27,050 nucleotides of DNA from a virus. A program made the position numbers and the translations under genes. Under the pieces are notes generated by a model. The model saw nothing but the letters and a program-made list of their open reading frames with translations. It ran no database searches and was not told the origin of the DNA. Below, piece after piece: positions 20,568 to 20,639 of the stretch (positions are counted from its first letter, which is position 1; each line of letters begins with the position of its first letter). The stretch lies in the IMG/VR virus record IMGVR_UViG_3300042937_000164, positions 1 to 27,050 of that record. One strand, 5' to 3'.

Positions 20568-20639
20568 ATGTGGACATCACCAGCAGCTACTGAAATGCGT
20601 TTTGGCTTTGAAGTAACCATGTATATAATGAACAAATAA
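20568..20639 (+). CDS. pqqA: PQQ precursor peptide PqqA
   Basis: This is a 23-residue gene, the usual PqqA length. AAAGGA (20555-20560) is 7 bases before the ATG. It opens [12 protein letters not shown] and continues GFEVTMY. The two residues cross-linked to build pyrroloquinoline quinone, Glu15 and Tyr19 in the E-x-x-x-Y motif, sit at exactly the standard positions. MW near the N terminus, R11, G13 and the final basic residue also match the family. In cells PqqE, with PqqD, joins Glu to Tyr, and other Pqq proteins finish PQQ. None of those enzymes is encoded in this window, so the peptide would feed the host pathway. The gene is alone between its own promoter and terminator. A chance match of this quality is very unlikely. 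Confidence 0.88.
   Translation: [23 protein letters not shown]

Follow-up and report, generated by a model that had tools for sequence, protein, structure and literature searches.

A phage-encoded 23-codon pqqA gene and its occurrence among phages of methylotrophic bacteria

Genomic context of the pqqA locus

The stretch of DNA analysed in this study (hereafter the window) is an IMG/VR virus contig of 27,050 bases, in which pqqA sits alone. The features that bear on this gene are as follows.

3980..4936, + strand: SU10-type major capsid protein, a marker of tailed phages (PF17236, E = 1.2e-88)
19267..20424, + strand: metallophosphoesterase/DNA repair exonuclease, the upstream neighbour of pqqA (phrog_704)
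20425..20554, + strand: AT-rich intergenic leader of pqqA, the place for any promoter, in which none stands out
20555..20561, + strand: Shine-Dalgarno of pqqA, AAAGGAC context with an AAGGA core, read in the sequence
20568..20639, + strand: pqqA, 23 codons and stop (translation; PF08042 and TIGR02107 over curated cut-offs; homologues in cultured methylophages)
~20657..20716, + strand: probable terminator, a CCCCACA ... TGTGGGG stem with a long apical part, followed by T7
20715..20945, - strand: 76-aa Cys-containing protein, the convergent downstream neighbour of pqqA
20967..21398, - strand: single-strand DNA-binding protein (SSB), replication/recombination block (phrog_44, E = 1.4e-29)
21675..22292, - strand: Erf-like ssDNA annealing protein (phrog_155)

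Capsid, endolysin, SSB and Erf genes occur together on the contig, which indicates that it is of phage origin and not host contamination. As the preliminary description of this DNA proposed, pqqA lies between a late block and a replication/recombination block, with endolysin and phosphoesterase encoded on the + strand and SSB and Erf on the - strand. The 76-aa downstream neighbour has no match in PHROG, and similar stretches occur in related phages. Searches of the window revealed no Rfam RNA family and no tRNA.

Elsewhere in the window, an HNH homing-type endonuclease (4999-5580) immediately follows the major capsid gene. Between the capsid and tail genes lie three adjacent genes (5899-8637) possibly involved in glycan modification: one for a TPR-repeat protein that weakly resembles phage glycosyltransferase families, one for a heptosyltransferase-like protein (PF01075) and one whose product has no match.

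Identity of the 23-codon gene

Bacteria make the redox cofactor PQQ from the peptide PqqA. The window peptide scored 37.9 bits (E = 1.7e-9) against the Pfam PqqA profile PF08042 (cut-off 21.1) and 34.4 bits against the NCBIfam equivalog TIGR02107 (cut-off 20). Approximately 139 ATG frames of 18–30 codons are present in the window, and the scores hold even after correction for this number, which excludes a match by chance. The start codon stands after AAAGGACTACATC on the + strand, and the translated frame carries both PQQ-forming residues, Glu15 and Tyr19, in the E-x-x-x-Y spacing. The reading of 20568-20639 as a PqqA gene, originally made from the letters alone, is thus confirmed, and the locus is a complete 23-codon phage copy of pqqA. 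PHROGs contain no match for the 23-residue peptide, which may help explain why the gene lacks annotation.

Expression signals

Three expression signals had been claimed for this gene, and they fared differently. The Shine-Dalgarno sequence is present. The promoter did not hold up, because a sigma-70 scan found three sites against 4.6 expected, nothing above chance, and the best manual match upstream of pqqA is 9/12 with a spacer of 19 nt. The terminator is plausible as a stem followed by T7 but atypical: the fold of 20640-20720 has an energy of -16.3 kcal/mol (z = -1.9, with 6 of 200 shuffles equally stable), and the hairpin was not among the sites listed by a simple terminator scan.

Distribution of pqqA among phages

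A protein search of phage records identified pqqA in nine records of cultured Methylophilales/Methylophilaceae phages (P19250A, MEP301, Venkman, MEP401, MEP402 and four of Melnitz) and in the environmental phage ctXG6705. The cultured phages span sipho-, podo- and myovirus types, and pqqA is thus spread over several phage lineages; their PqqA peptides are 77–91% identical to that of the window. When 101 bases spanning pqqA were compared with the DNA of 50,697 phage records, the same ten records matched and no others. The window has no near DNA relative among these 50,697 records, and its capsid protein shares 40–45% identity with its counterparts in Venkman and in several environmental phages. 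Compared with the window, P19250A, MEP301, MEP401/402, Venkman and Melnitz have different genomes and different gene neighbourhoods around pqqA. Between a 10-kb piece of Venkman and ctXG6705, near-identical DNA is limited to 85 bases, which comprise pqqA and its ribosome site.

None of the ten matching records annotates pqqA as such. P19250A, MEP301, Venkman, MEP401 and MEP402 have no annotated feature over the gene; ctXG6705 and Melnitz-1 have a gene predicted across it on the opposite strand (2067-2195 in the ctXG6705 locus L002 and 4961-5056 in the Melnitz-1 locus L008), and the other Melnitz records also have a hypothetical protein there. These opposite-strand genes in Melnitz-1 and ctXG6705 are probably false genes that mask the true one. 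The suspicion that a gene of 23 codons is easily missed by annotation is therefore borne out by the nine cultured records.

In IMG/VR, at least 120 other contigs match a DNA pattern for the PqqA core. A few viral contigs (for example L030, L063, L077, L118 and L120) encode a clearly different type of PqqA and perhaps represent phages of other PQQ-making hosts. Two further kinds of match were discarded. Both Acinetobacter phage MD-2021a records (L009, CAKLQF020000010.1; L010, CAKLQH020000055.1) carry pqqB, pqqC and pqqD beside genes usual in bacteria and look like contigs from a bacterial chromosome, and a match in Escherichia phage ERS-1 (E = 9) was taken as chance.

Whether phage pqqA had been reported before was left as a question in the preliminary description. 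The first report that we found dates from 2020 and concerns the T4-like virus VP_266 from Lake Baikal (Coutinho et al., PMC7678222), and a 2026 reservoir study filed virus-encoded pqqA among phosphorus genes (PMC13188868). Similar to the window, the Baikal viruses VP_139/VP_266 are predicted Methylophilaceae phages with pqqA (in VP_266), which was interpreted there as an auxiliary metabolic gene connected with PQQ and methanol oxidation (PMC7678222). Different from the window, they are T4-like and carry a phage methanol dehydrogenase; the window represents a smaller SU10-capsid phage, with no dehydrogenase among the proteins scanned on a contig that is probably incomplete. One 72-kb phage record (G012) resembles the Baikal report in that pqqA stands beside a gene for a PQQ-linked alcohol dehydrogenase. 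A term search of open PMC texts found no mention of phage pqqA in the publications that describe Venkman, MEP301, MEP401/402 and Melnitz. The spread of pqqA across methylophages thus appears to be unreported in the open literature searched.

Translation, selection and relation to host DNA

Viral copies of pqqA are uniform in length and signals. Exactly 23 codons are found in 119 of 128 copies, and a Shine-Dalgarno sequence of at least four bases, 6–9 nt from the start, precedes all 128, against ~8% of shifted control windows. In 49/128 copies a simple terminator lies 3' of the gene, compared with 0.5% of shuffled sequences. The pN/pS ratio is 0.14 overall, and 0.27 when only codons left free by the search pattern are counted. 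The first viral pattern fixed residues 11–19, so that their invariance was built in and was set aside; the second ends at residue 14 and leaves Glu15 and Tyr19 unconstrained (31 of its contigs were new, and most were shared with the first set). In this second set, both residues are conserved in 120 of the 120 copies listed, and positions 16, 18, 20, 21 and 23 are variable (at least 120 copies). Several phage peptides are identical to host peptides letter for letter. Taken together, these features provide strong indirect evidence that viral pqqA behaves as a translated gene under protein selection. Of the outcomes named beforehand as fatal to the PqqA reading, none was encountered at the level of sequence: the profile matches, the related phages keep both residues, and the ribosome sites and codon changes argue against an untranslated frame.

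Phage and host pqqA DNA are 74–100% identical (median 93%), and hosts hold many dispersed copies, which could suggest that the phage carries along a remnant of host DNA or uses a fragment of host pqqA as an attachment site for integration, and that the peptide has no role. The flanks, however, are no more alike than those of random pairs (30 nt upstream, 44% versus 42% identity; 40 nt downstream, 28% versus 27%), which argues that pqqA is not an attachment site. Moreover, the entire frame is preserved with its own ribosome site, and the changes are mostly synonymous, whereas in an attachment core the DNA itself would be conserved. The annotations of the P19250A and MEP401 records list no integrase. 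On this flank and codon evidence we rejected the attachment-site explanation as largely refuted, and consider it very unlikely.

Prevalence in samples not chosen for pqqA

Because many records are fragments, the shares given here are lower bounds. Relatives picked by the window's capsid protein carried pqqA in 6 of 50 records. It was present in 5/7 contigs of at least 27 kb whose capsid protein was at least 70% identical and in 0/9 distant capsid relatives of at least 20 kb (Fisher p = 0.005, with groups drawn after the data were seen). Contigs of the P19250A type, picked by terminase, had pqqA in 7 of 22 cases (5/9 among those of at least 32 kb), and those of the MEP401 type in 3 of 19, most of them being without it. 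Selection by capsid or terminase alone thereby yielded 16 copies.

Several long, perhaps near-complete relatives have no pqqA (G064, G071, G110, G112, G113 and G115), which indicates that the gene is not essential. Some phage lineages carry it commonly and others rarely, and it is not universal. The named Methylophilales phages MEP431-434, HIM624-A, phiMB624-A and EXVC038S did not turn up in the searches, and no claim is made for every methylophage. Clustering of viral loci by gene sharing did not enter the lineage counts, since most loci are linked through just one or two genes in common.

Host pqqA copies and the PQQ pathway

In a bacterial genome collection, the matches listed for a pattern of window-type PqqA came almost only from Methylophilaceae. 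Considered with the phage DNA matches, which are limited to Methylophilales/Methylophilaceae phages and one environmental phage, this makes a methylotroph a well-supported predicted host of the window's phage, as had been supposed from the sequence. Among 12 Methylophilaceae genomes, all selected for having a pqqA match, each contains 1–12 copies, and PqqE scored over the cut-off in 11. This agrees with published genomes of the family, in which 3–12 pqqA copies accompany a single set of the other PQQ genes, and in which XoxF and the PQQ genes are part of the core genome (PMC4109929).

Chromosomal pqqA of Methylophilaceae encodes the same 23-residue type of peptide with the same kind of Shine-Dalgarno sequence, and some peptides are identical; the phage copies differ in being phage-borne, in having unrelated flanks and in standing without PqqE. 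A search limited to PqqE gave nothing over the cut-off in 50 pqqA-bearing phage records. Those proteins of the window that were scanned gave no PqqE match. A complete pqqABCDE operon, with PqqE encoded alongside PqqA, was accordingly not found. Methylophilaceae pqqA and PqqE supply the homologous host gene and pathway expected for an auxiliary metabolic gene, given the predicted host of the window's phage.

The presence of pqqA without PqqE in those 50 records (searched for PqqE alone) would also fit a decoy or brake, in which phage PqqA binds PqqD/PqqE and slows host PQQ synthesis or PQQ-dependent oxidation; a lone peptide could conceivably titrate a shared chaperone. Yet both PQQ-forming residues are invariably kept in the copies listed, and a substrate needs them whereas an inhibitor does not. 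The exact identity of several phage peptides with host peptides is likewise what a substrate requires, and one phage (G012) adds its own PQQ dehydrogenase. Such an inhibitory role therefore has very little chance of being correct.

Proposed role in precursor supply

We consider it likely (probability roughly 0.8) that a functional phage pqqA feeds host PQQ synthesis and would thereby sustain methanol dehydrogenase during infection, a reading built on sequence comparisons. We infer that the gene is expressed during infection, that host PqqD/PqqE accept the peptide, that PQQ rises and that the phage benefits. After infection, the phage gene would yield the 23-residue peptide, which host PqqD would bind and host PqqE would cross-link at Glu15 and Tyr19; other host enzymes would trim and finish the cross-linked peptide to PQQ. 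The extra PQQ might keep periplasmic methanol dehydrogenases (XoxF/MxaF) loaded, and the methylotrophic host could continue methanol oxidation while the phage replicates.

Each PqqA is consumed per PQQ made, unlike an enzyme, which makes precursor copy number a sensible control point. The multiplication of pqqA alone in hosts, beside one set of the other genes, fits precursor dosage. On the other side, hosts already carry several copies, which speaks against the need for a further one. In Acetobacter, overexpression of pqqAB alone raised PQQ by 29%, whereas overexpression of the whole pqqABCDE operon gave an eightfold increase (PMC7936290), and the precursor alone may thus not be limiting.

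The destination of phage-derived PQQ could also be different. PQQ has users besides methanol dehydrogenase, and the cofactor might serve redox protection, signalling or another PQQ enzyme. The divergent PqqA type of the few viral contigs noted above suggests that some hosts may lie outside the Methylophilaceae. Against such a use, the annotated phages with this kind of pqqA have methylotroph hosts, apart from one environmental phage, and XoxF belongs with the PQQ genes to the Methylophilaceae core (PMC4109929). We regard another destination as unlikely, and supply to methanol dehydrogenase remains the preferred reading.

On balance, we also lean toward the broader view of pqqA as a hallmark common to methylotroph phages, acquired separately by several unrelated lineages and mostly overlooked owing to its 23 codons, with the phages giving a consumable peptide and host enzymes doing the rest. 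An auxiliary metabolic gene of this size can be widespread in well-studied phages and yet escape gene callers, with consequences for every survey of metabolic genes in phages. Through PQQ supply, phages may influence how OM43 and LD28 bacteria, which are abundant in the coastal sea and in lakes, oxidise methanol, and the idea is directly testable because phage-host pairs exist in culture. The medium used for the OM43 strain H5P1 had 1 nM PQQ in it (PMC9004378).

Paired pqqA copies in OM43-type genomes

Several OM43-type genomes contain two pqqA copies that are separated by approximately 200 bases and enclose a conserved, tiny Cys-rich frame. This frame has a motif like FHNWxCxCPxCSxK. The arrangement was noted at L152 (2472-2743), L149 (7092-7361) and L212 (4200-4472), with coordinates on the pqqA strand, as well as at G046:C1:875061-875316.
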